Made by a program: the position numbers and the translations under genes. The notes under the pieces are model-generated. The model was not told the origin of the DNA. It made no database searches and saw only the letters and a program-made list of their open reading frames with translations. A DNA stretch of 64,000 bases from Treponema sp. (GTDB lineage: Bacteria > Spirochaetota > Spirochaetia > Treponematales > Treponemataceae). Positions 28,101 through 41,780 of the stretch are shown here, in pieces. The stretch covers positions 1 through 64,000 of the forward strand of contig JAILIC010000008.1 of the NCBI GenBank assembly GCA_024695475.1, read 5' to 3'. Within the stretch, counting starts at the first letter, position 1. Every line of letters begins with the position of its first letter.

Positions 28101-28703
28101 TTATCGGCAGGTGCGCAGGAACTTGTCTATTTTTTGTTCCAATATTTTACGATTGCCGATATTCCATACTCTCTTAATATCGGCATGTAAAATGCTATAT
28201 TTAGCAAAAAGGTTACGTTGTGACAAAAAACGTGCAATAATATGGGAACAGGGCATACCGTCACGTTTTTTTGCACGTATAAATCGTTGGACTACAGGTG
28301 CATCGACGTATAAAACCATTGTACATAGGGCTAATAAGCTGGGGATTTTATATAATACCGTTGCATTGATGATGATGTCGGAGTTTTTATGGTGCGCTAT
28401 AAAATGAGTGATGAGCTCTATGACTTTGGGATATACTAAGTCTTCTTGTTTTTTTAGGAGCACTGGATTTGAAAATATAAGTGCTCCTAATGCTCTTCTG
28501 TTTAATGAGCCATCGCTGTTTTGTAGTGCAATATGCTTTTCCTGTGCGTCATGAGCAAATGTTTGGATGATGACTGGCGAAAGCTCTTGTATTGCCTGAT
28601 GGGTAAGTGTATCTGCATCGGTAGAAACAAACCCTTTTTGTTCAAGAATGCTTGATACGGCATTTTTGCCCGCAGCCATAGGACCGGTAACGCAAAGTAT
28701 CAA
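28101..28703 (-). CDS. coaE: dephospho-CoA kinase
   Basis: This catalyses the last step of coenzyme A synthesis, phosphorylating the ribose 3'-hydroxyl of dephospho-CoA. The 200 residues include the P-loop GPMAAGKNAV (an unusual Asn replaces the Ser/Thr that normally follows GK), STDADTLTHQAIQ, RRALGALIFSNP and VLYVDAPVVQRFIRAKKRDG. The start overlaps the polA stop by four bases. The polA-coaE pairing is seen in many bacteria. Because of the unusual P-loop residue, activity is probable rather than certain. Confidence 0.9.
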   Translation of the reverse strand: MILCVTGPMAAGKNAVSSILEQKGFVSTDADTLTHQAIQELSPVIIQTFAHDAQEKHIALQNSDGSLNRRALGALIFSNPVLLKKQEDLVYPKVIELITHFIAHHKNSDIIINATVLYKIPSLLALCTMVLYVDAPVVQRFIRAKKRDGMPCSHIIARFLSQRNLFAKYSILHADIKRVWNIGNRKILEQKIDKFLRTCR

Positions 28704-31558
28704 TGGAATTCTCCCCAGTTTTTACCATATTCAACTGAAACTCTTAGAGGAATGCGCAACTGTACGGCATGTTCCATACAACTCTGAACGAGGCTGACTG
28801 TTTGCTGTATAATTTCGGGCTTATCAGGACACTCCAGTATAAGTTCATCATGTACTTGCAGTAATAAGTGGGCTCCATTGTTTTGTTTTCTCAATGCGGT
28901 ATCTACATCAAGCATGGCTTTTTTGACTATGTCAGCGGCACTACCTTGAACAGGTGTGTTGACGGCAATGCGTTCTGCGGCTGTTTTTTCAAGCTTGTTG
29001 CGGCTGTTGATGTTCATGATTGGGCGCTTACGGCCAAAAATGGTCTCTACGTATCCACGTGACTCAGCCTGACTTACTGTTTCTGATATAAAGTTTTGGA
29101 TCGAAGCATACGTTTTAAAATAGCTTTCTATAAAGCTTGCAGCTTGTGCACGAGGAATACCGAGCTCATTTGACAAACGAAATGCAGACATGCCGTAGAT
29201 GACTCCAAAGTTAATTGTTTTGGCGGTTCGACGCATGTCGGCAGTAACTTGCTCAGTTGGTACAGAAAATATCATGGATGCAGTTGCCTTGTGGACATCG
29301 ACACCATCTGAAAACGCTTTGCACATATTGGGATCTGCTGATAGATGAGCTAAGACAACAAGTTCAATCTGTGAGTAATCTGCAGAAATAAGTACTGTAC
29401 CAGGAACAGCGGTAAAGGCTGTCCTTATTCGTCTGCCGGCATCATTGCGGATAGGTATGTTTTGTAGATTTGGATCCCTGCTCGATAATCGTCCTGTCGC
29501 AGTGCCTGTTTGCATAAAAGAAGTGTGAATTCTGCTGTCGATGTCACATAATTTAGGAAGGGCTTCTACATAGGTTGATTGTAATTTAGCCAGTTCACGA
29601 TATTCGAGTATTTTTTTTGGTACAGGATCCCAAGCTGCCAATTCTTCAAGAACAGCGGTGTCAGTGGAATAGCCCGTTTTTGTTTTTTTACCAGGGGTGA
29701 GCTTGCGTTCTGTAAATAGTACTTCCTGTAGTTGTTTTGTCGAGGCAATGTTAAATTCATGGCCTACGAGCTGGTATATGTCTTGTTTTGTTGTTTCGAT
29801 ATTGTTGAGTAGTTCGGCATTGTATGTTGCCAATGCCTCTGAATCTAAGTGAATGCCCCGTAACTCCATCTCTGCAAGGATAGGCAGAATTTTCATTTCT
29901 GTATCTGTAAACAGGGCATACAGCTTTTTTTGATCCAGTTGTGGTTTAAAGAGGTACCAAAGTTGAAGCGTAAAATCTGCATCCTCTGCTGCATAATTTG
30001 CAGCTGTATCAATCGAAACATCTGCAAAGGTTTGATTTTTTTGCACGATGTCGTTGTATTCGGTACCAGCAAGAGCGAGTTTACTTTCTGCCAGATATTC
30101 TAAAGAATAGGGTGTTTTTCCTTGTTTGTCAGGTTCTAATAACCAGGCGGCGATCATTGTATCAGCAATGGTACACAGCGGCTGTGGATATGTAGTATCT
30201 GCAAAAAGACTGTCACTGGGAGTAAATGAGATACCTGCAGTACGAAGTACTTCATAATCAAATTTGCCGTTGTGCATAACAACAGTGACTTCTGGTGTAG
30301 AAAATAGTCGAGACAGTTGTTCCAATGCCTGTGTTTGTGTTATAAGTGGACCTGCAAACAATGCATCTGTTAAAATGAGAGGTATATACACACCGCTACC
30401 AGCTTCTGTCGAAATACTAAAACCAACTAAGTGAGCTTCTCTGGTATTGAGGCTGTCTGTCTCGGTATCAAATGCACACAGTTTTGTTTTGTGTATTATG
30501 GTATCGATAATCGAAGTGAGTTCTTGTATATCGGTAACAGCATGATAGTTTCCTGTGTTTTTGGAGAGAGGTTTTAATGGCTCGATAGAATTTTGAGAAG
30601 TTAAGTCATACGTTTGTTTTTGCGCTATGCTGTCAGTGGTAGTGGTATCATTGTTGCTACCCAGTGCCATTTCTGCATATTGTTTTGCAACAGCCGGTGT
30701 TCCATATTGTTTGAGCAGATCTGCTGCTCCTTTATAATCAAGTGTGACAGGTTGTATGTTATCTATAGATATGATTTCTGTTGAGTTTTCATAAGGAACC
30801 GTCGTGCAGAGTTTTATAAGGTCTTTTGAAAAGTATGCGTCCTGTTTACCGGCTCGGATTTTTTCTCCTATGGAGCCTTTGATTTCATCTGCATGTGCAA
30901 AAAGATCATCAAGCGTACCATATTGATCCAGATATTTACAGGCGGTCTTTGGTCCAACACCTTTGACACCAGGAATGTTATCAGCGGTGTCACCGATGAG
31001 AGAGAGTAAGTCTTGCATTCTTTCTGGTTCGACACCCCAGTCAGCTTTTACACCTTCAGCTCCTACAACTTTCCAAACTTCACCTTTGTCAGGTTTGAGA
31101 ATTTGCGTCGTATCATTGACTAATTGCATCAGGTCTTTATCTCCAGAGAGAATACGGCAAGGTCGTCCTTGTTTGCTGCACTGGGCTGCGATTGTTGCGA
31201 TGACATCATCTGCCTCGTATCCGTCACTGCGTAATACGGGGATACCGAGCTTTATGAGTATGTCTTCGATCCAAGGTACTTGAGCATGGAGATCTTCAGG
31301 TGTTTTTTGTCGGGTTGCCTTATAGTCAGCATACATTTTATGTCTAAATGTAGGTGTTCTCGAATCAAAAGCTGCTATGAGATAGGCTGGTTTATAATGT
31401 ACTAACAAGGCATGGAGATTTCTAAAAAAGCCAAATACGGCAGAAATATTTTGTCCTGATTGATTGGTGAGCGGTCTTGAGATAAAGGCAAAATAACAGC
31501 GGTAGATAAGACCGTAGGAATCAAGTATATATACGGTTTTGTCATCAAATTGGGTCAT
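28700..31558 (-). CDS. polA: DNA polymerase I
   Basis: A repair and Okazaki-fragment-maturation polymerase of 952 residues. In order: the 5'-3' exonuclease domain (VYILDSYGLIYRCYFAF, DGYEADDVIATIA, GDKDLMQLV), a 3'-5' exonuclease domain with the acidic pair intact (FDTETDSL, MHNGKFDYEVL, YAAEDADFTLQL), and the polymerase domain (ADYSQIELVVLAHLS, RRTAKTINFGVIYG, LQVHDELILE). Proofreading is therefore likely retained. ATG 31558 (MTQFDDKTVY) matches the family N-terminus; upstream in-frame ATGs at 31585 and 31606 lie inside a 10-bp inverted repeat. It overlaps coaE by four bases. Confidence 0.95.
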   Translation of the reverse strand: MTQFDDKTVYILDSYGLIYRCYFAFISRPLTNQSGQNISAVFGFFRNLHALLVHYKPAYLIAAFDSRTPTFRHKMYADYKATRQKTPEDLHAQVPWIEDILIKLGIPVLRSDGYEADDVIATIAAQCSKQGRPCRILSGDKDLMQLVNDTTQILKPDKGEVWKVVGAEGVKADWGVEPERMQDLLSLIGDTADNIPGVKGVGPKTACKYLDQYGTLDDLFAHADEIKGSIGEKIRAGKQDAYFSKDLIKLCTTVPYENSTEIISIDNIQPVTLDYKGAADLLKQYGTPAVAKQYAEMALGSNNDTTTTDSIAQKQTYDLTSQNSIEPLKPLSKNTGNYHAVTDIQELTSIIDTIIHKTKLCAFDTETDSLNTREAHLVGFSISTEAGSGVYIPLILTDALFAGPLITQTQALEQLSRLFSTPEVTVVMHNGKFDYEVLRTAGISFTPSDSLFADTTYPQPLCTIADTMIAAWLLEPDKQGKTPYSLEYLAESKLALAGTEYNDIVQKNQTFADVSIDTAANYAAEDADFTLQLWYLFKPQLDQKKLYALFTDTEMKILPILAEMELRGIHLDSEALATYNAELLNNIETTKQDIYQLVGHEFNIASTKQLQEVLFTERKLTPGKKTKTGYSTDTAVLEELAAWDPVPKKILEYRELAKLQSTYVEALPKLCDIDSRIHTSFMQTGTATGRLSSRDPNLQNIPIRNDAGRRIRTAFTAVPGTVLISADYSQIELVVLAHLSADPNMCKAFSDGVDVHKATASMIFSVPTEQVTADMRRTAKTINFGVIYGMSAFRLSNELGIPRAQAASFIESYFKTYASIQNFISETVSQAESRGYVETIFGRKRPIMNINSRNKLEKTAAERIAVNTPVQGSAADIVKKAMLDVDTALRKQNNGAHLLLQVHDELILECPDKPEIIQQTVSLVQSCMEHAVQLRIPLRVSVEYGKNWGEFH

Positions 31559-31565
31559 GCCTGTA

Positions 31566-31606
31566 GTGTATCCGCAAATAGGCATTTTCGCAATGAGCGG
31601 ATACAC
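31566..31606. repeat. 10-bp inverted repeat directly before polA
   Basis: GTGTATCCGC (31566-31575) and GCGGATACAC (31597-31606), with a 21-base loop, lie between the chemoreceptor stop and the polA ATG. No T-run follows on the minus strand. In mRNA the hairpin would end 7 bases before the polA start, so it could limit translation or mark the end of the chemosensory transcript. Confidence 0.75.
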
Positions 31607-31624: not shown

Positions 31625-33148
31625 TTACAGTAAACTGGCAATTTCCCTGACATTTTCTGATGCGGATGAAACACTGGTGATGTTTTGCGAAAAGTGTTCA
31701 ATTCCCTTTGCGATATCCTGCAATGTAATAAAAATCTGCTCGCTCGCCCCTGTAAGCTGTTCAACATTGCTTAAAATCTGGTGGGAACTTTCTGCCGTGA
31801 TTTGTGAGGACTGCATGATGCTTTCAAATTCATTTTCCAGAGAACGTGCACTTTGATAGCCACTGTCAATCTGGGTGGTTCCTTTCTCGCTGTCTTGAAT
31901 CAACATGTCAGACGCTTTTTGAATCTCTGTGATTATTTCTTTAATTGTTTTGATGCTGTCAATAATATTATCTGAGAGACGGCGAATTTCTGTTGCAACA
32001 ACATGAAAATTCTTGCCTGCTTCGCCTGAGTTAGAAGCTTCAAGCTCGGCATTAAAGGCAATGATTTTTGTTTTATCTGCAACACCATTGATGATGCCTA
32101 TGATATCCCAAATGCCATTGATTTTGGTATTTAGTTCCTTGATACCATCAATGGTAAGCATATTGGTATTTTTGATATTCTGCAGTTCTTCGACGTTTTT
32201 CTGCAAGGCTTGATTACCAGAAACAACTGCATCTCGTGATTGTTCTGCCAGTGTTGTTACTTCTTTAATTTTTTCACCAATATTATTGGCAAGCATTGTA
32301 GAATCCTGCATAGTTGCAACAATCTCTTTTACAGCTGCACTTTGATTCTGGCTTGTTTCTGCACTTTGCTTTGTTGCTTCGGCCAGAGTGGTCGATTCTG
32401 CAAGAAGATTATCGCTTACACTCTTTTGCGTATTTTGAATTCTCTTTGTAATGACTTTGAATACAATAAGGAACTCGATAAGACTTGTGAACCAGCCGAT
32501 AATACAATATTTGAGGAACGTATCATAGCTACCTGCTTTTGTATTAAGAATAATAGCATAAGGTACGGTAATCATATTGACTATCGCAGTGTTAAGCGAA
32601 GCCCACATGGCAATATTCTGCACGCCTTGCAGGTTTTCGCTCAACTTTATGCCTATCTGTCGCATCTCATTTGCCATGTGGATTCTTTTTACAAGTACAT
32701 AATTAATGGTATAACACATAAAACCGGTGGCAAGCGACTGAATCTCTATCAGAATGAATGTTATCATATTAAAGGGAGCAATTCCTTTTACAGAGGTAAT
32801 TATTGCAGTTGAGCCTGCTCCTACCAGAAATCCTATTGCATTTGCGATTACGATAACAATGTCATAGTCGTGGTACGCTTTCATGCATTTTTTTATGTCT
32901 TTTTTTGTGAGTGCATTTCTGTCTTTTTTGCCCTTTGCTATGATTTTGTCAAATCCATTAAGGATCGGCCATTCAAAAAACGAGGCACAGGCAATAAGTA
33001 TAAAGGCAATCAAAACAGTTGGAACGCAACCAGTAAGTATATATATTGGATGCTCATAGATGAATCCGTAATGAAAGATTCGTAAGAAAAATATACCCGT
33101 GTATGTGGCAGCTAATATAGTTACAAAATATTTCTTAAAAGATGTCAT
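31625..33148 (-). CDS. chemoreceptor with polytopic N-terminus and atypical tip
   Basis: A 507-residue receptor-like protein. The first about 235 residues contain about six hydrophobic segments and no large periplasmic sensor, so it may sense membrane state or partner proteins. The C-terminal coiled coil has the tip VADKTKIIAFNAELEASNSG, clearly different from the canonical QTNxLxxNAAIEAA, but shared with the MCP at 39954. It is the last gene of the chemosensory operon, 22 bases after the cyclase. A ribosome-binding site (AGGAG) precedes the start. Confidence 0.9.
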   Translation of the reverse strand: MTSFKKYFVTILAATYTGIFFLRIFHYGFIYEHPIYILTGCVPTVLIAFILIACASFFEWPILNGFDKIIAKGKKDRNALTKKDIKKCMKAYHDYDIVIVIANAIGFLVGAGSTAIITSVKGIAPFNMITFILIEIQSLATGFMCYTINYVLVKRIHMANEMRQIGIKLSENLQGVQNIAMWASLNTAIVNMITVPYAIILNTKAGSYDTFLKYCIIGWFTSLIEFLIVFKVITKRIQNTQKSVSDNLLAESTTLAEATKQSAETSQNQSAAVKEIVATMQDSTMLANNIGEKIKEVTTLAEQSRDAVVSGNQALQKNVEELQNIKNTNMLTIDGIKELNTKINGIWDIIGIINGVADKTKIIAFNAELEASNSGEAGKNFHVVATEIRRLSDNIIDSIKTIKEIITEIQKASDMLIQDSEKGTTQIDSGYQSARSLENEFESIMQSSQITAESSHQILSNVEQLTGASEQIFITLQDIAKGIEHFSQNITSVSSASENVREIASLL

Positions 33149-33170
33149 ATCTCCTCCTTATTAAACTTCA

Positions 33171-35021
33171 CTATTTAGTCATAAATGCAATCGCACCGTC
33201 CCAGTTTTCGGGTGGATTGATTATAAAGTCAGTACAACGCTCAAGCATAAGTTTTGCAGCTTTATCACCTGCTGCTTGATCCAATGCTTTTGAAAAATAA
33301 TCTTTTGCAAGATGCCAAATTCCTTGTTTGTATAGTTCCATGCCTTTGATATATGCATTTTTGTATTCTGTAGAAAATTCATTTTCATTACGATCTACCG
33401 CATAAATAGCAACAGCATTCTTTTTGCCTTTTACACGTACATCATCAAGATGTCGAAAGCAAAAAGAGTTTTCTCCGGCATCGGAGCGAACACTGTCACT
33501 TACAAGAATTTGAGTACCATATGTTTTTGTAAGCCCCTCAAGGCGGGATGCAAGGTTTACATTATCTCCAATGACAGAGTAATCCGTCTTATCTTTAGAA
33601 CCGATGGAACCTACAATGACATCTCCATAATGTATGCCGATGCCAATGTTAAATGTCATTCCTTCTGGCATGATGAGCTCGCCCATTTCTACAGAAGAAA
33701 GGGCATCTCGCATTTCGTAGGCAGCCATAATAGCGCGGCGGCAGTTATCATCATAACTTACCGGAGTGCCAAATTCTGCCATAATTGCATCTCCAATAAA
33801 CTTATCTATTGTACCTCCGTGTTTTTTGATAATGTCTACCATTGTAGAAAAATAGCGGTTTAAAAAGGCAACAAGAACATCTGGTCTGTTTTTTTCGCTT
33901 ATATTGGTAAATGAACGGATATCGCTAAAAAGAATTGCAACGGAACGAGTTTCTCCGACGCCAAGTTTTTTATTTGTTTCGTCTGATTGGAGTACAAGAC
34001 TGTCGATAATTTGCTCTGGCACAAAGCGGCTAAACGCACGACGAATACGTTTTTCAAAGAATATCTTTTTTTCGACAATCAACGCTTTATCAAAGACTTT
34101 TGCGGCATGGCGGACACAATAATCAAAAAAGGAGTAGTTATCGCTGATAATGTTGCCTTGAGCTACGATATGAACAGTGCCAAGGACCGTTTTTTCAGTC
34201 TTGATGACCCCATATTCATAGCTAGAAAGTTGAATGCTGTCATTATAAAACGTTTCCAGAATGCCATCAGAAGAAAGTATTTTTGCTTTTATGTTGGATA
34301 TAGTGCCTTTGTTTTGATTTTTTTCATAATCGGTCGAGCAGACAGTTAAAAAATCGATAACATCTTTTTGTGCAATAGTATCTGCACAGACATAATACCC
34401 ATGTGCACCGTCATTTTGGGTAATGTACATAGCTGCAAGGGGAACTTCAGAAACTTGGGCAACTAATAGCAGATAGTCTTGGATCATGTCTTCGATAGTT
34501 TCGAGCATTCCTACAAGATCATTCATTTTTGTAAGCATGAGATTTTTGTATGAACTGCTTTGTAGTAAAAAAGTGGCTTTTCCCAAAAGCATGGTTTTAT
34601 CAACAGTATATTTGCTCTTATTGTTTTGTGTTGGTTCTTTTGATTGAGTTTCGATTTTTGCAAGGTCTGCAATATTTTGGACAAGTGTTTGATCACTAAG
34701 CCGTATAAACGCATTGGCACCACATTCCTTTGCAAAATACTCGTCCAAAGCCGATTGTGTAGTTGCATACATTCCAATGGCAAGATTTTTGAAAAGTGGC
34801 AGCTCAAGTGAACGCATAATTTTTATGAGCTCAAAACTTCTTATCTCATTAGTATTGCAATTTATCAAAAAGAGATCTGGCATTAAATCTGATATAGTAG
34901 TAAAAATGTTTTTTTCGTTGTTTTCAAACGTGATTGCATATTCCTGTGAGTCTAGCGTATTGGTAAAGAGCTTTTGAATAGTTGCTGAAGTTTCAAGAAT
35001 AAGAATTTTCTTTGACATCAT
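33171..35021 (-). CDS. class III adenylate/guanylate cyclase with degenerate receiver
   Basis: A soluble signalling enzyme of 616 residues. Residues 1-125 form a receiver-like fold that lacks key residues: N54 replaces the phospho-Asp (PDLFLIN), only E10 remains of the acidic pair, and R replaces the conserved Lys. About 150-330 is a GAF-like region. About 360-555 is a complete class III cyclase domain with metal Asp (LFSDIRSF), KFIGDAIMAEF, TDYSVIGDNVNLASRLE and the transition-state Asn/Arg. The C-terminal about 45 residues are TPR-like. It follows cheA with a four-base overlap and would be the output of this chemosensory cluster. cAMP is more likely than cGMP given the Lys in KFIGD, but this needs testing. 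Confidence 0.9.
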   Translation of the reverse strand: MMSKKILILETSATIQKLFTNTLDSQEYAITFENNEKNIFTTISDLMPDLFLINCNTNEIRSFELIKIMRSLELPLFKNLAIGMYATTQSALDEYFAKECGANAFIRLSDQTLVQNIADLAKIETQSKEPTQNNKSKYTVDKTMLLGKATFLLQSSSYKNLMLTKMNDLVGMLETIEDMIQDYLLLVAQVSEVPLAAMYITQNDGAHGYYVCADTIAQKDVIDFLTVCSTDYEKNQNKGTISNIKAKILSSDGILETFYNDSIQLSSYEYGVIKTEKTVLGTVHIVAQGNIISDNYSFFDYCVRHAAKVFDKALIVEKKIFFEKRIRRAFSRFVPEQIIDSLVLQSDETNKKLGVGETRSVAILFSDIRSFTNISEKNRPDVLVAFLNRYFSTMVDIIKKHGGTIDKFIGDAIMAEFGTPVSYDDNCRRAIMAAYEMRDALSSVEMGELIMPEGMTFNIGIGIHYGDVIVGSIGSKDKTDYSVIGDNVNLASRLEGLTKTYGTQILVSDSVRSDAGENSFCFRHLDDVRVKGKKNAVAIYAVDRNENEFSTEYKNAYIKGMELYKQGIWHLAKDYFSKALDQAAGDKAAKLMLERCTDFIINPPENWDGAIAFMTK

Positions 35022-37117
35022 ATATCTCCCAAAAGTTCATGGAGTACTTGGAGGAGTTTTCCTCGTTTAAAATCACTTTTTGCAATAATTGCACCAGCTT
35101 TTAAACGCTGAAAGTCTTCAATAAGGGTACGGCTTTGATCTGCAGAAACTACTATGACAGGAGTTTCTTTGTATTGTTCAAGACGTCGCAGGTTATCAAG
35201 CAAGATAAGTCCCGTCATACGAGGCATTTCTTGATCGGTGAGGATCATGTCATACTGTTTTTCTTTTGCTTTTTCCAGTCCGTCTAATCCATCAAAGGCA
35301 TCATCGACTACATAGCCTGCCCCTTCAAGTATAGATTTTTCAATTTCACGGGAAGTTGTTGAGTCGTCTACAACAAGAATACGGATTGTTTTCTTTTGTG
35401 TTGCCGCTTCATATTTTTTTATGTCATATCCACGTAATGCCTTAAATCTTTGCAAAATATCAGGTACATACAGAATAGGTACAATATCATAATGCTCATC
35501 AAATACAATGCCTTGCAGAATTGAACATCCTCTCAGACCTGTAGGCATTGGCTTAACAACCAAAGAAACATACTGTTCAATCTGTTCTACAATAATTCCG
35601 ATTCGTTGTTCCATATATTCAGCAATAAGAATAGGTTCCTCATCTTGAATAAGTCCTGATTTACGATCTTTAAAAAGCGAAGAAAGCGGAAAACACGGAA
35701 TAAGTTGATTATCAAATTTAATATAGTTTTGATTTTGCAAAACAGTATAATCAATTCTCTTTCGATAAATAATATCAATGATATGTTGAGATGGAATAAG
35801 ATACTTATCTTTATTTGAAAAAACAAAAAGTCCTTGCAACGTTGAAAGGGAAAGTGGAAAGTGCAGAATAAACGAGGTACCTTTGCCTTGTATGCTTTCG
35901 ATTTTTATGCGGCCTTTAATTTTTTCCATCTTTGACCAAACAACATCAAGACCTACACCCCGTCCCGAAAGTGCCGTAACTTCTTCCTTAGTAGAAAAAC
36001 CAGACTGGAAAAGAAACTGTGACAGTTCTTTTTCGGTCATCTGTTTAATTTCTTCGATTTGGTCTGAGTACAGTCGCATTGCTTTTGCTCGAATTTTTTC
36101 ATAATTAAGTCCACGACCGTCATCTGAGATCTGTAACTCAATATAACGTGCCTCACGCACACAGTTTATACGTATAGTACCTTGTTCCTTTTTTCCAGCT
36201 TTTATACGATCTTCTGGATATTCTATTCCATGGTCCAATGCATTTCTAACCAGATGCATGAGAATGTCACCGAGCTCTTCCAGAATAACCTTATCAATAG
36301 CAATATCAGTTTCTGGAATTTCGCATTTGACTTGTTTATTAAGATTAATGGCTTCTAATGCAATGGTTGTTTCAAGCGGTTGGAGCACGAGATTTAGCGG
36401 AAGCATACGCAGGTCAAATGCTTTTTCCTGCACAGAAAAGATTGAAGTTTCTAGAGAATAAATATCGTTTTCAAATTGTTTGCGGATTTTGGAAAGTTCG
36501 CGGTTGCCTGTTTGTTCTTCCAGTTTTTTTAACGCATCAAGCTGCGCTTTGAGATGAAACTCACGGGTTATCATTGTATCAAAAGCAGCAATAATTTCGT
36601 TTACACGCGAAAGCTTGATTCTTATTGATTGGATGTCACTTAGTTTTTCAGATGAGGCTTTTTCATCATCGTTTTTGATTTTTTCGTTTTTGTTGTTAAT
36701 TTCGGCGATAAATGAATCAATGTCAATAAGTTCACCAGCGGCAAGTTTATCGCAATATTGCAGATAGCTATCTATATTTGTACTGTCTGTTCCTTTTTTT
36801 TGGATTATCGAAATACATTCCTGTATTTTATCAGCAACGGTAAAAACAAGTTTTACAAGCCTGTCAGAAACCTTTATTTTTGAGTCTTTGACGCTTTTAA
36901 AAATATCTTCTACAGCATGAGAAAGCTTTTCAATGTTGGTGTATCTCAACATTCTTGAATTACCTTTTATGGTATGAAGATTTCTGAGCAGACGATGTAG
37001 TGCTTCTGTATCATCTTTATTTGTTTTGAGTGTAATAATATCTTTTCGAATGTCTTCCAAGAGTTCTTTTACTTCTGAAATGTAGCTTTCGGTTATATCA
37101 TTACTATTGTTAGCCAT
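35018..37117 (-). CDS. CheA-type histidine kinase fused to a receiver
   Basis: The cytoplasmic kinase of the cluster, 699 residues. It has an N-terminal Hpt domain with phospho-His H48 (LHTIKGNSRML), then dimerisation helices, the HATPase domain (HLVRNALDHGIEYPEDR, SDDGRGLNYEKI, GRGVGLDVVWSKME), a CheW-like domain, and a C-terminal receiver with all key residues (ILVVDDS, ILTDQEMP, IIAKSD). It lacks a clear P2 domain for CheY/CheB docking. CheA-receiver hybrids such as FrzE and WspE work in alternative chemosensory pathways. It lies between cheR and the cyclase, with a three-base gap and a four-base overlap. Confidence 0.93.
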   Translation of the reverse strand: MANNSNDITESYISEVKELLEDIRKDIITLKTNKDDTEALHRLLRNLHTIKGNSRMLRYTNIEKLSHAVEDIFKSVKDSKIKVSDRLVKLVFTVADKIQECISIIQKKGTDSTNIDSYLQYCDKLAAGELIDIDSFIAEINNKNEKIKNDDEKASSEKLSDIQSIRIKLSRVNEIIAAFDTMITREFHLKAQLDALKKLEEQTGNRELSKIRKQFENDIYSLETSIFSVQEKAFDLRMLPLNLVLQPLETTIALEAINLNKQVKCEIPETDIAIDKVILEELGDILMHLVRNALDHGIEYPEDRIKAGKKEQGTIRINCVREARYIELQISDDGRGLNYEKIRAKAMRLYSDQIEEIKQMTEKELSQFLFQSGFSTKEEVTALSGRGVGLDVVWSKMEKIKGRIKIESIQGKGTSFILHFPLSLSTLQGLFVFSNKDKYLIPSQHIIDIIYRKRIDYTVLQNQNYIKFDNQLIPCFPLSSLFKDRKSGLIQDEEPILIAEYMEQRIGIIVEQIEQYVSLVVKPMPTGLRGCSILQGIVFDEHYDIVPILYVPDILQRFKALRGYDIKKYEAATQKKTIRILVVDDSTTSREIEKSILEGAGYVVDDAFDGLDGLEKAKEKQYDMILTDQEMPRMTGLILLDNLRRLEQYKETPVIVVSADQSRTLIEDFQRLKAGAIIAKSDFKRGKLLQVLHELLGDI

Positions 37118-37120
37118 TAA

Positions 37121-37981
37121 CTACACCTCCTGCTTTTTTTTGTGAAAATAAAAAATACTTCCATCAGAGACTCTTTCAAGACACTTTGGAACAATTGATG
37201 AGTCTAATTGTGCAATTTCACTCATTGAAACAAAAAGATAGCCGTCTTCTGCAAGACAGGTATCAGCAATGGTACGAAGTATATGTGTTCTCAATTCCAT
37301 TGAAAAATAGATGAATACATTTCGTATAAAAATTAAATTCTGTTGTTTTGGTAGTAGGGGACTGTTTAATAAAGACTGTAACTCGGCAAGGTTTAATCGT
37401 CTTGTTTTTATGCACTTTTTTATAGTATCTGGAAAAGCAAATTTTCCATCTTCTCGTCTGTAAGGCAAAATCATAGTATGAAACGCAGCCCCATCAATAG
37501 AACGAAGGGAAGTACCCAAAAAGACTCCGCTTGAACAGTGTTCCAATACTTTTGAATTAATATCGCTTGCAGTAACAAGAGGATTAATACCACAACGTAA
37601 TGCCATGACTGTCAGTGAATATGCTTCTTCTCCATAAGAACAGGCAGCGCTCCAAATTTTCATTTCTTCTTTAGGATTATTCATTTTCCATAATGGAAAC
37701 AGTTTTTCTTTAAGAAGTGAAAACTGTTTTTCTTCTCTAAAAAAGTATGTTTCGTTTATAGTACTCTGATTTACAAATTCTGATATGATGTTTTTGTCTT
37801 TTATCAGCAATGATTTGTATTGCTCTATAGAATATTTATTTTGTAAGATTTTACGCTCAATATAACTTTTAATGCCATCGCGATGACTTGCACGAGGAAC
37901 AATACCAGTGTACTCCGTCAGTATTGTGATAAATGGTTCGAGAATATCTTCTGTTAAAATAAGAGATGATTTATTTCCCAT
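37121..37981 (-). CDS. CheR-type chemoreceptor methyltransferase
   Basis: It transfers methyl groups from S-adenosylmethionine to receptor glutamates. The 286 residues include an N-terminal helical domain and the SAM-binding domain with WSAACSYGEEAYSL, TASDINSKVLE and NLIFIRNVFIYFS. There is no C-terminal TPR. It overlaps cheB by 11 bases and precedes cheA, so it should serve the two receptors of this operon. Confidence 0.92.
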   Translation of the reverse strand: MGNKSSLILTEDILEPFITILTEYTGIVPRASHRDGIKSYIERKILQNKYSIEQYKSLLIKDKNIISEFVNQSTINETYFFREEKQFSLLKEKLFPLWKMNNPKEEMKIWSAACSYGEEAYSLTVMALRCGINPLVTASDINSKVLEHCSSGVFLGTSLRSIDGAAFHTMILPYRREDGKFAFPDTIKKCIKTRRLNLAELQSLLNSPLLPKQQNLIFIRNVFIYFSMELRTHILRTIADTCLAEDGYLFVSMSEIAQLDSSIVPKCLERVSDGSIFYFHKKKQEV

Positions 37982-38963
37982 GTGTTTTTACCAGTTCAAT
38001 TATTCTTTTTGCAATTTCTGTGCGTGGTAAAACCTCTTTTGCACCGCCAGCTTCTATTGCTGCAGCTGGCATACCAAAAACTGCACATGTAGATTTATCT
38101 TCTACGATGGTCCATCCGCCTTTATCGCATATTTCTTTACAACCGGCTGCTCCATCAGCACCCATTCCAGTAAGGAGGACGGCAAGTACATTATTTTTTA
38201 ATTGTGTTGCTGCACTTTTAAATAGTTTATTTACTGCTGGCCGCAGATAATGTTCTGGAGGCTCGTCAGAAAGCTGCAATACAGGTGTTCCGTCTGATTT
38301 TATGAACCTGATGATAAGATGCGTATCGGCAGGGGCCATGTATACAACGCCTGGGTGTGCTTCTTCTCCATCTTCGGCAAGTTTAATTTTGATATTTTCA
38401 CATACACTGTTAAGCCAGTCGACAAGCGGTTTATCTTTATCAATTTCAATATGTTGAGTATACAGAATTGGTAGCGGAAAATGACTGCCAAGCGAACTTA
38501 AAATGGTGCAAACTGCAGTAGGACCTCCGGTAGAAGATCCAATACACAGGACCTTATATGTTTTTAAATCGTCTTGTATGACAGTTTTTTTTGTATTTTT
38601 TTTAATAAGAATCGAAAGCTTTTCTATAAGTGTAGTGAAAAATTCTGATGAATAATTATTTAACCCTGGCTTTTCCATTTTGTCGATAAGACTTGTAAAA
38701 AAAGGCAGAGGAGCATCAGTATGTACTAAGAGCATAACTGGAATTTTCATCTCATTGCAGATGAAGCTGAGAGCATCATGTTCGCTTTTATCCTGTACAT
38801 CAACACCACAAATAACAGCATCTGGAGTATCAGAAAGTGTCTGTTTTATAATTTTATTACAGTTGGAAAATGAATGCAGTATCTGCATGTTTGATAGGTT
38901 TGAGAGATTTTGTTCAAGTATTGTGCGCACAACTGCAGAGCTATCCACTATTACAATCTTCAT
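37971..38963 (-). CDS. CheB-type methylesterase with degenerate receiver
   Basis: It removes receptor methyl groups or deamidates receptor glutamines. The C-terminal catalytic domain (from about residue 135) has Ser144 in IGSSTGGP, His in TQHIEID and Asp in GMGADGAAG. The N-terminal receiver is altered: G53 stands where the phospho-Asp belongs (DAVICGVD) and the acidic pair is D7-S8. Activation by phosphorylation therefore seems unlikely. The start overlaps the CheW-like gene by four bases. Confidence 0.9.
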   Translation of the reverse strand: MKIVIVDSSAVVRTILEQNLSNLSNMQILHSFSNCNKIIKQTLSDTPDAVICGVDVQDKSEHDALSFICNEMKIPVMLLVHTDAPLPFFTSLIDKMEKPGLNNYSSEFFTTLIEKLSILIKKNTKKTVIQDDLKTYKVLCIGSSTGGPTAVCTILSSLGSHFPLPILYTQHIEIDKDKPLVDWLNSVCENIKIKLAEDGEEAHPGVVYMAPADTHLIIRFIKSDGTPVLQLSDEPPEHYLRPAVNKLFKSAATQLKNNVLAVLLTGMGADGAAGCKEICDKGGWTIVEDKSTCAVFGMPAAAIEAGGAKEVLPRTEIAKRIIELVKTHGK

Positions 38964-39445
38964 GAGTTCACTCCAATGACAGTTCGGATTAAATTATCTG
39001 GCGTTATAAGGATCATGCGCTGCTTTGCAAAGCCAATTGCATGTACTCCACATTTTTTCTGTTTTTCTCGGATTCCTTTTGGTATTAATTTTAAAATCGA
39101 GAGATCAATCTCTTTTGTTGCAATATCAGAATTTACAGAAAGTGCAAAAGTACCGCTGGCAGGAAAATCGGTTCCTGTATAATGCACGATCTTTTTTTGT
39201 AATGACGTGTCAAAATCGTTTTTTTTCATGACGAGCATAATATTGCAATCATGGATACTTTTGCATACAAAATGCTCTTCGAGAAAAGGTCCTAAATTAA
39301 TATGAGGTAAAACTTCATTTTCAAAAGTAATGTGAGCATCATTGACTTTATCTGGCAGGTGAATTCCAAAAAGAACATATTTACTGTGGATGAGAAAATC
39401 AATGGTGTTATATGATAAACAGGTAAAATGATTAATTGCTACCAC
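38960..39445 (-). CDS. divergent CheW-like protein
   Basis: A 161-residue protein whose position and pattern (CLSYNTIDFLIHSKYVLFGI, LPHINLGPFLEEHF, GIREKQKKCGVHAIGFAKQRMILITPD) resemble the CheW SH3-like fold, though poorly. It lacks the usual GxxxxRG motif. It overlaps the standard CheW gene (14 bases) and cheB (4 bases). It may be a second adaptor, like FrzB beside FrzA. Confidence is moderate. Confidence 0.6.
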   Translation of the reverse strand: MVAINHFTCLSYNTIDFLIHSKYVLFGIHLPDKVNDAHITFENEVLPHINLGPFLEEHFVCKSIHDCNIMLVMKKNDFDTSLQKKIVHYTGTDFPASGTFALSVNSDIATKEIDLSILKLIPKGIREKQKKCGVHAIGFAKQRMILITPDNLIRTVIGVNS

Positions 39446-39938
39446 AATCTTTCCTTATCAGTAATTCAAAAGCATTTTGATTGAGAACGGGAATTTCTTC
39501 AGCTTCATACTCAACTGTTCCAAGAAGAAAACTTTCTTCTGTTGCATTAGGTATAAGCTTGAGATGTGAATCTTCAATTTTTGTAAACAAGAGAATATCC
39601 GAAATGTGGAGCGACAACTGATCGTCTGTCCTTTTAAAAATCATATATAGCAATTTTTCTGGGGGAGCAGCATTTGGATTATCTTGAATAATGGGATTTG
39701 GATTTACGACGGTAAAAGGCTCACCGCGTCGGTTCAGAACCCCTTCTATATATGTTGGCATAAAGGGCAGCTTATACACAGAAAGATCACTTATAATTTC
39801 TACGACATCACTGGAGCGTATGGCATATTTTTTATCAGAAATGAGAAATATGAGCCAGGTTGTCATTGCTTTTTGTTCTTCAATGTCTGCCTTTTGAGTA
39901 GTATTTTCTTGTAATTCTTCAATTATATCTTCATTCAT
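39432..39938 (-). CDS. CheW-type coupling protein
   Basis: A 168-residue scaffold linking receptors to CheA. About 35 acidic N-terminal residues precede a normal CheW domain: WLIFLISDKKYAIRSSDVVEII, LPFMPTYIEGVLNRRGEPFTVVN and the C-terminal GTVEYEAEEIPVLNQNAFE. The receptor/CheA-binding RRG turn is intact. It has a good AGAGG-type ribosome-binding site and lies 15 bases after the MCP gene. Confidence 0.92.
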   Translation of the reverse strand: MNEDIIEELQENTTQKADIEEQKAMTTWLIFLISDKKYAIRSSDVVEIISDLSVYKLPFMPTYIEGVLNRRGEPFTVVNPNPIIQDNPNAAPPEKLLYMIFKRTDDQLSLHISDILLFTKIEDSHLKLIPNATEESFLLGTVEYEAEEIPVLNQNAFELLIRKDCGSN

Positions 39939-39953
39939 GCTCTGCCTCTGGTA

Positions 39954-41780
39954 TTACTCGTCTGATTCTTCATCAGCATTATCTTCATCCGTATCGTTAG
40001 CGTCATCATCAGACTGAGTACTGTCACTCAGTTCTGTTGCGACGCGCTTAAGGTTTTCAGAAGCTTTTGAAATATATTCGGTTGCCATCGAAAAATTAGA
40101 GACACCAGAAGAAATTTGCTTTAATGTGACAAGAATCTGTTCGCTTGCGGAAGTTTGTTGTTGTATTGTGGTAGTGATTTTTTGTGCACTTTCAGCAGTG
40201 ATTTCAGAAGCATTTCGTATACTTTCAAAGCTGGTCTCAAGATTTTTTGCATTTTCTACACCTGACTGAATTTTATCTGTTCCATTTTCACTGGAAAGAA
40301 TAAGATCATCAGAAGATTCTTGAATCTCGTTGATTTTGTTTTTTATTTCTTTTGTACTTTCAATAATGCCATCTGCCAGTCGTCTGATTTCGTTAGCAAC
40401 AATATGAAAGTTTTTACCAGAACTGTTTGTGCTATTTGCTTCAAGTTCTGCATTAAATGCAATGATTTTTGCTTGATCTGCAACCGAATTAATAAGCGAA
40501 ACTATGCTCCAGATGTTTTCGATTTTTTCGCCTAAAGCTTTGATGCCTTCAATTGTGTTCATGTTGGTTGTGGCAATTTCTTCAAGCTGTTTCATGTTTG
40601 CTTCAATAAAAGAAACTCCCTCGAAAACAGTGGTATTTGTTTTTATAGCGACTTCCGATACATCTTTAATTCTTTGCGCGATATCTTCACTTAATGCGGT
40701 GTTGTCTTCCATTGTGGCAACGATTTCTTTTACTGCTGCGCTCTGATCCTGTGCAGTTGCTGCGTTTTCTTTTGCAGATACTACAAGGCTTTGGGCATCT
40801 TGAAAAAGTTGTTCTGCAAGTATTTGTTCTTCCTTTTTCAGTTTTTTGGTCATGGTAATATTGCAGATAGAAACGATTATGCTGAAAATGATCAGCATAA
40901 TCTCAAAAATAACAGTAAAACGCGAAAGTTTACTTTTAAAATCTTTGACAGGCCCCTCAACGACTATATACCAGGGAGCATATCCAATTTTGCAGACAGC
41001 ATAATAGTTTTTACTATTTAAATATGTTTTTGTCTCGCCGTTTAGCCATTGTGTTTTATCTCCTGAATACGAGGTTTCATCAAGCCAGTTTGCAGACATT
41101 ACTTTAGTCTGATCGTCATTTGTAAGAAAAAATCCATTAGAAGTTATTATGTTTAATTTTGCATGTTTTGAGATTTGTACTTCTTTTATTTCAGCTATCA
41201 GGTTATCTAAAAGAATATCGCTGCCAATAACACCTTTTAATGTTTTATGAGTATCATACACAGCCTGAGATATGGTCACACAAAGAGAATTGGTATTTGC
41301 ATCAACGTAAGGTGTAGAAAAAGTAGTTTTGTCTGGATTGTTTGCCGCTTCTGTAAACCAAGATCGTTCGGATGGTTCAAAGTCTTTTGGTGCCTGCCAG
41401 CCTATGTTATTAATAAAGTGACCGCCGTTAGAAATTTTTGTTACTGGAGCGTAATATAACATGGATACATATTCATCAAGTTTTTTTGCAAAAACATTCA
41501 AAAGCTGTTCAAGTGGTTTGTCATCATTATATCCAGCTGCAAATAAGGCAAAGTTGTCTACATTTAAAATGATAGGCTCCATGCTTTCAACAACTGCGGA
41601 ACTTAGTTTTTCAACAGAAAGCTCCAGTTGGCTTTTCATATATGACTTTAAGATTTGATTTGTAACATAATAGAAAAAAGCACCGGCACCAAATGTGATA
41701 ACAAGAAGGGGCGCAAACATTCCCCAAAATAGTTTTCGTGATTTTTTATTACTATGTGTACCTAAATCATTTTTTGCCAT
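39954..41780 (-). CDS. chemoreceptor with Cache-type sensor and atypical tip
   Basis: A 608-residue membrane receptor and first gene of the operon. TM1 (LFWGMFAPLLVITFGAGAFFYYV) is followed by a large periplasmic double-Cache-like sensor (WFTEAANNPDKTTFSTPYVDANT, GVIGSDILLDNL, YAPWYIVVEGPV), TM2 near residue 300, and a signalling coiled coil with the tip VADQAKIIAFNAELEANSTN. An acidic tail of about 20 Asp/Glu-rich residues ends the protein. ATG 41780 has GGGG six bases upstream and is chosen over TTG 41792. Cache domains usually bind amino acids, organic acids or polyamines; the ligand here is unknown. Confidence 0.92.
   Translation of the reverse strand: MAKNDLGTHSNKKSRKLFWGMFAPLLVITFGAGAFFYYVTNQILKSYMKSQLELSVEKLSSAVVESMEPIILNVDNFALFAAGYNDDKPLEQLLNVFAKKLDEYVSMLYYAPVTKISNGGHFINNIGWQAPKDFEPSERSWFTEAANNPDKTTFSTPYVDANTNSLCVTISQAVYDTHKTLKGVIGSDILLDNLIAEIKEVQISKHAKLNIITSNGFFLTNDDQTKVMSANWLDETSYSGDKTQWLNGETKTYLNSKNYYAVCKIGYAPWYIVVEGPVKDFKSKLSRFTVIFEIMLIIFSIIVSICNITMTKKLKKEEQILAEQLFQDAQSLVVSAKENAATAQDQSAAVKEIVATMEDNTALSEDIAQRIKDVSEVAIKTNTTVFEGVSFIEANMKQLEEIATTNMNTIEGIKALGEKIENIWSIVSLINSVADQAKIIAFNAELEANSTNSSGKNFHIVANEIRRLADGIIESTKEIKNKINEIQESSDDLILSSENGTDKIQSGVENAKNLETSFESIRNASEITAESAQKITTTIQQQTSASEQILVTLKQISSGVSNFSMATEYISKASENLKRVATELSDSTQSDDDANDTDEDNADEESDE

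Follow-up and report, generated by a model that had tools for sequence, protein, structure and literature searches.

A spirochaetal chemosensory operon that probably makes cAMP through a cyclase bearing a pseudo-receiver

The window analysed here is a stretch of 64,000 nucleotides from a Treponema genome of 3.17 Mb in 172 contigs. On its minus strand, at 41780-31625, lie eight open reading frames (ORFs) whose neighbours overlap or are at most 22 bases apart and which encode, in this order and all on one strand, an MCP, CheW, a CheW-like protein, CheB, CheR, CheA with a receiver (REC), a class III cyclase and another MCP. From the first MCP gene to the second, the junctions are a gap of 15 bases, overlaps of 14, 4 and 11, a gap of 3, an overlap of 4 and a gap of 22. 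An earlier note on this DNA had described such a cluster with tiny gaps and overlaps, and we recovered all eight ORFs where it had placed them, with Pfam in agreement for all but the CheW-like protein; the coordinates (37117-35018 for cheA and 35021-33171 for the cyclase gene) likewise bear out a cyclase directly behind cheA with a 4-base overlap. As the note had also said, neither CheY, CheX, CheD nor a motor gene is found within the cluster. Its features are:

39954..41780, minus strand: MCP1, 608 aa, with a periplasmic dCache_1 domain and an MCP signalling domain (Pfam dCache_1 63.5 bits, MCPsignal 72.3 bits)
39432..39938, minus strand: CheW coupling protein, 168 aa (Pfam CheW 38 bits)
38960..39445, minus strand: second, divergent protein of predicted CheW fold, 161 aa (structure model and Foldseek; no Pfam match)
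37971..38963, minus strand: CheB with intact methylesterase domain and degenerate receiver (Pfam CheB_methylest 186 bits; REC below cut-off)
37121..37981, minus strand: CheR methyltransferase, 286 aa (Pfam CheR 114.9 bits)
35018..37117, minus strand: CheA with Hpt, dimerisation region, ATPase, CheW domain and C-terminal receiver (Pfam, receiver alignment)
33171..35021, minus strand: predicted adenylate cyclase with N-terminal pseudo-receiver (Pfam Guanylate_cyc 99.7 bits; REC sub-threshold)
34860..34862, minus strand: codon for cyclase Asn54, which occupies the site of phospho-acceptor Asp57 in receivers (alignments)
31625..33148, minus strand: MCP2, 507 aa, with a hydrophobic, apparently multi-helix N-terminus (Pfam MCPsignal 76.8 bits alone)

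Pfam places dCache_1 in MCP1 only and returned no Cache match for MCP2. In a sequence comparison among solved structures, the Cache part of MCP1 (window 40955-41465) resembles PctA and PctB, which are amino-acid receptors. The flagellar chaperone genes fliS and flgN lie about 250 bases upstream of the operon; a flagellar link through them was considered and rejected, since fliS, flgN, polA and coaE are near none of 60 relative loci. On the other side polA (window 28700-31606, not conserved among relatives) begins 18 bases past MCP2 on the same strand, and read-through into polA and coaE may therefore occur. Promoter-like sites showed no excess over shuffles, and a plasmid origin was rejected for want of any match. 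The gene order, which the earlier note had suggested looking for in other genomes, recurs identically in dozens of spirochaete genomes, so that the eight-gene arrangement is not due to chance; close operon relatives are Treponema MAGs, several of them rumen-derived.

The third gene had been labelled CheW-like, a label that structure comparison upholds and sequence does not. The 161-aa protein has no Pfam match, its profile comparison with CheW was negative (probability 0.8%) and a sequence search against the PDB gave nothing useful. Its predicted model (pLDDT 90), in turn, matched CheW or CheA structures in 17 of 17 Foldseek matches at E<0.001 (TM 0.50-0.60), which assigns it to the CheW fold at the level of the model. 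Orthologues occur in clades A and C (defined below) and at some outlying loci; clade B is without one.

The predicted structure of the cyclase (mean pLDDT 78.6, pTM 0.46) comprises a (beta-alpha)5 receiver fold (residues 1-121), a GAF/PHY-like region (about 157-291), a long helix of 38 residues (293-330), a class III catalytic domain (357-542) and C-terminal helices (551-601), in an arrangement that is unsure because of the pTM value. The closest structural match of the catalytic domain is Pseudomonas aeruginosa CyaB (3r5g, Z 22.7); Cya2 and CyaC (1wc0, Z about 21) match as well. All six catalytic residues of a class III adenylate cyclase are present, namely two metal-binding Asp, the adenine-specifying Lys and Asp, and the transition-state Asn and Arg (D367, K407, D411, D480, N489 and R493). 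The window cyclase has the full sextet, as do 62 of the 91 cyclases compared, the others differing mostly at the second adenine-pair position. At the position of K407, Cya2, a guanylyl cyclase, carries Glu, and the phytochrome-fused form of Cya2 labelled adenylate/guanylate (6fht) carries Lys. Where the earlier note had left the product as cAMP or cGMP, the predicted product is cAMP because of the adenine pair Lys407/Asp480; the same pair disfavours cGMP.

The note had further spoken of a receiver-like domain in the cyclase. The fold is that of a receiver, but alignments place Glu10/Thr11 at the acidic pair, Asn54 at Asp57 and Leu108 at Lys109, the last position being taken from a separate alignment rather than the automatic one. 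Judged by these residues the N-terminal domain is a pseudo-receiver, not a phosphorylatable response regulator, and it therefore cannot be a conventional target of CheA phosphorylation, so that a conventional relay to the window cyclase was rejected. The CheB receiver has Gly at its phospho-Asp position, and the C-terminal receiver of CheA is intact in the alignment. With both other receivers broken, CheA's own receiver is thus the sole acceptor within the operon. CheA itself has the makings of a histidine kinase, with Hpt His48 and the ATPase boxes HTIKGN, VRNALDHG, DDGRG and GRGVGLD; no P2 domain was found in it, and its P3 region, missed by Pfam, can be aligned to relatives that do give a weak Pfam match for P3.

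Of 145 genomes searched within the family, 142 gave cyclase matches and fewer gave full-length relatives. We sampled 60 relative loci, 20 further stretches, the majority of which come from other families or orders, and 80 named loci from a genome scan, and took a score of >400 bits to define the full architecture, which yielded 96 spirochaetal cyclases, 91 of them distinct. cheA lies upstream in 95 of these 96 and, across spirochaete families, in 90 of the 91 distinct sequences; the lone exception begins at base 97 of its contig and is cut by the contig end. At two loci, L223 and L224, cheA and the cyclase are separated by a partner cyclase. As sampling started from the best matches to the window cyclase, the linkage applies to this architecture and does not extend to class III cyclases at large, many others of which are encoded elsewhere in the same genomes. 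Matches in other phyla (e.g. L148) do not represent this operon and were set aside. Frequent occurrence of the gene apart from the cluster, which the earlier note had named as evidence against its belonging with the pathway, was thus not seen; this supports the cyclase as a member of the pathway, and the che-cyclase system is a conserved module.

Several relatives deserve mention in their own right. The window's own genome carries a second che-cyclase operon of clade C on contig 3 (L039:1160-13600; genome G000), with a longer CheR (463 aa), three downstream MCPs and a cyclase receiver that has Phe at the first acidic position and Tyr at the phospho-Asp position. A further che cluster on contig 115 (L231:1440-9061) comprises cheA (705 aa), cheR, cheB, a CheY-sized receiver, an MCP and two CheW-like genes. 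The tandem cyclases behind cheA at L223:7864-11239 and L224:7312-10736 have complementary lesions, the upstream member keeping both metal Asp and lacking Asn/Arg, the downstream member having His for the first metal Asp and keeping Asp/Asn/Arg. From these residues the pairs are predicted to be obligate heterodimers; mammalian C1/C2 is a comparable cyclase pairing.

In a tree of the 91 cyclases the window falls in clade A (19 rows), which adjoins clade B (20 rows, SH-aLRT 84); L071 lies near the base of the two, and clade C and the loci of other families fall outside both. The clade B rows also stay together in a CheA tree computed without the ATPase columns, where the label changes number two because the truncated L229 is counted with clade B. 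Cyclase Asp57 is lost in every sequence of clades A and B and in L071, nearly always to Asn (His in L040, Thr in L057), and is kept, usually within DDDT or EDDT, by the majority of outlying loci (L122, L123, L212-L216, L218-L222 and L229); the outlying L217 has lost it. Since the cyclase receiver is still intact in most of the distant spirochaete relatives, the ancestral state was likely a relay from CheA to a receiver-cyclase.

The kinase boxes of the CheA relatives, scored by aligned columns, reveal a second kind of loss. The Hpt His, the N box, the G1 box and the CheA receiver survive in all complete CheAs of clade A. L041 reads DGPAGLD in place of GRGVGLD and keeps the remaining boxes. Clade B CheA (20 distinct loci) covers about 6% of the ATPase columns and lacks the Hpt His, and in six proteins tested Pfam found no Hpt or HATPase at E<=1, only CheW and receiver domains and chance matches, so that this protein lacks both the P1 His and the P4 ATPase of a CheA histidine kinase. 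Its receiver keeps the acidic residues, with a 9-residue gap from strand 4 to strand 5. The CheA receiver acceptor is kept throughout clades A and B. In L071 CheA the kinase boxes are dead, with the Hpt His replaced by Arg and the receiver Asp by Ala, and the Hpt His is also absent from L096 and L223. Cyclase catalytic residues are intact in clade B, L071 and L096, the exception being the split pair of L223. At L072:7824-13448 and L059:2923-8511 the operon is reduced to MCP, CheW, a kinase-less CheA and the cyclase, cheR and cheB being gone; L060, L062 and L064 have lost the CheB receiver. Clade B genomes also encode a main-type CheA of about 790-857 aa, and trans phosphorylation of the kinase-less CheA's receiver is therefore possible. 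Taken as sequence comparisons, these data suggest that the phosphate relay to the output enzyme was lost stepwise and that one sister lineage lost the kinase too; in the window's lineage the cyclase receiver likely ceased to accept phosphate before one branch deleted the kinase. A survey reports P1, P3, P4 and P5 in all 13,673 CheAs (PMC10782961), a rule that the clade B sequences appear to break, although the survey may have required those domains.

The operon thus probably makes cAMP rather than steering flagella, and the reading to which we incline, as slightly more likely than not, is that of an adenylate cyclase run by a receptor array. In it the cyclase is not itself phosphorylated, and control comes from contact of its pseudo-receiver with the receiver or the scaffold of CheA. 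MCP1 (and MCP2), together with CheW and the second CheW-fold protein, would control CheA, with the receptors tuned by CheR and CheB; CheA would autophosphorylate and pass phosphate to its own C-terminal receiver alone. The pseudo-receiver, taking no phosphate, would dock on that receiver or on the scaffold, and the contact would shift the packing of the GAF-like region and the long helix, which sets the cyclase dimer, and thereby convert receptor state into cAMP. The pseudo-receiver is placed at the contact point with CheA because the cyclase has been retained alongside CheW, the receptors and the CheA scaffold; like this contact, the direction of regulation, the downstream target and the cAMP product are what we infer. 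In clade A the signal probably still passes by way of the CheA receiver, and in clade B either a purely conformational path or trans-phosphorylation could serve.

Persistence of the clade B operon without a CheA kinase weakens the phosphate role assigned to clade A, and it speaks for a purely conformational device. In such a device the pseudo-receiver would be the handle by which receptors, CheW and CheA scaffold grip the cyclase, and clade A too could do without phosphotransfer. The clade B loci, L071 with kinase and CheA-receiver Asp gone beside an intact cyclase, and the four-gene remnants of L072 and L059 all favour it, but the retention of Hpt His, N and G1 boxes and receiver by every complete clade A CheA implies use, and the clade B receivers keep acidic residues that a main-type CheA could phosphorylate in trans; for clade A we regard it as rather unlikely. 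A looser formulation, with the array acting on the cyclase by direct conformational contact, no phosphotransfer to the cyclase, phosphorylation optional and clade B a kinase-free pathway from MCP through CheW and scaffold to cyclase, we put forward as a tentative possibility that we would not bet on.

Alternatively, the cyclase might merely be co-transcribed and run by its own GAF-like region, with the Che proteins feeding another output such as the main flagellar CheY. The GAF/PHY-like region does precede the catalytic domain, where it could be the main cyclase regulator, and there are other che clusters in the genome; but the pair of cyclase and cheA is tightly linked and has outlived loss of the kinase, cheB or cheR, and this linkage and survival make simple co-transcription improbable. 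Least credible of all, and in our estimate very nearly dismissible, is a conventional phosphorelay in which CheA switches the cyclase on by phosphorylating its receiver, as in WspR: the domain order and the intact receivers of most of the distant spirochaete relatives would suit it, but the window receiver has Asn for the acceptor Asp, Glu/Thr for the acidic pair and Leu for the Lys.

In the array-run cyclase that we favour, cAMP would act through the genome's cyclic-nucleotide-binding proteins, of which ten matches exceed the Pfam cut-off. Among them are a CRP-like regulator, two proteins with tandem domains and a BrkB fusion. The last (L103:487-1821), a BrkB-family membrane protein with a C-terminal cNMP-binding domain, is a candidate cAMP effector. 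In Leptospira kobayashii a cAMP-making photoreceptor rapidly alters swimming (PMC9043183), and the present family would tie chemoreceptors to cAMP in spirochaetes, where cAMP alters swimming quickly in that one species.

Among known systems, the Pil-Chp pathway of Pseudomonas aeruginosa signals through the adenylate cyclase CyaB and resembles the window's operon in that chemosensory proteins have a class III adenylate cyclase as an output and the CheA-type kinase ends in a receiver. To our knowledge, however, the CyaB gene lies away from the chp genes and its product has no receiver domain, whereas the window cyclase sits in the operon and bears a pseudo-receiver; Chp, moreover, drives type IV pili. 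No pil gene was recognised in the ORFs immediately flanking the window's operon. The Wsp system is alike in having a Che-like operon without flagellar output whose last component is a nucleotide cyclase with an N-terminal receiver. WspR, however, belongs to the GGDEF enzymes and its receiver can be phosphorylated, unlike the class III cyclase with pseudo-receiver of the window's operon, which is therefore not a Wsp system. Cyanobacterial CyaC is likewise a class III adenylate cyclase, working in a two-component setting and not in a chemoreceptor system.

The earlier note had called a pathway ending in a class III cyclase with a receiver-like domain less common, which understated the precedents: regulators joining REC to a mononucleotidyl cyclase, the same pairing as here, were listed in 2012 in ACF-type che clusters (PMC3447774), and with Pil-Chp using CyaB the output class was already known. 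Those regulators are treated there as ordinary receivers in cheR-TPR clusters (PMC3447774), as against the pseudo-receiver here, and the main text of that article holds no match for Treponema or spirochaet. The multidomain output regulator of the window's operon and its want of a CheY would fit the ACF class. For a CheA with degraded kinase domain, Rhodobacter sphaeroides CheA3/CheA4 provides a precedent (PMC10782961), but CheA3 keeps its Hpt and works with CheA4, whereas clade B CheA lacks both Hpt His and ATPase. As far as the literature consulted shows, what is new is the spirochaete operon with a pseudo-receiver cyclase, the gradual loss of its relay parts and the CheA homologues without ATPase.

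The closest mechanistic model is Caulobacter PleD, whose cyclase is activated when a receiver, once phosphorylated, works on its pseudo-receiver partner (review PMC12632262). There too a true receiver paired with a pseudo-receiver controls a cyclase, but PleD is a single polypeptide making c-di-GMP, whereas here the true receiver would be CheA's, acting in trans. The same 2025 review calls pseudo-receiver switching a mystery (PMC12632262). The relatives form a graded series of one operon, from an intact receiver in distant spirochaetes through pseudo-receiver plus kinase in the window to pseudo-receiver without kinase in clade B, and these three variants could reveal what a pseudo-receiver does.
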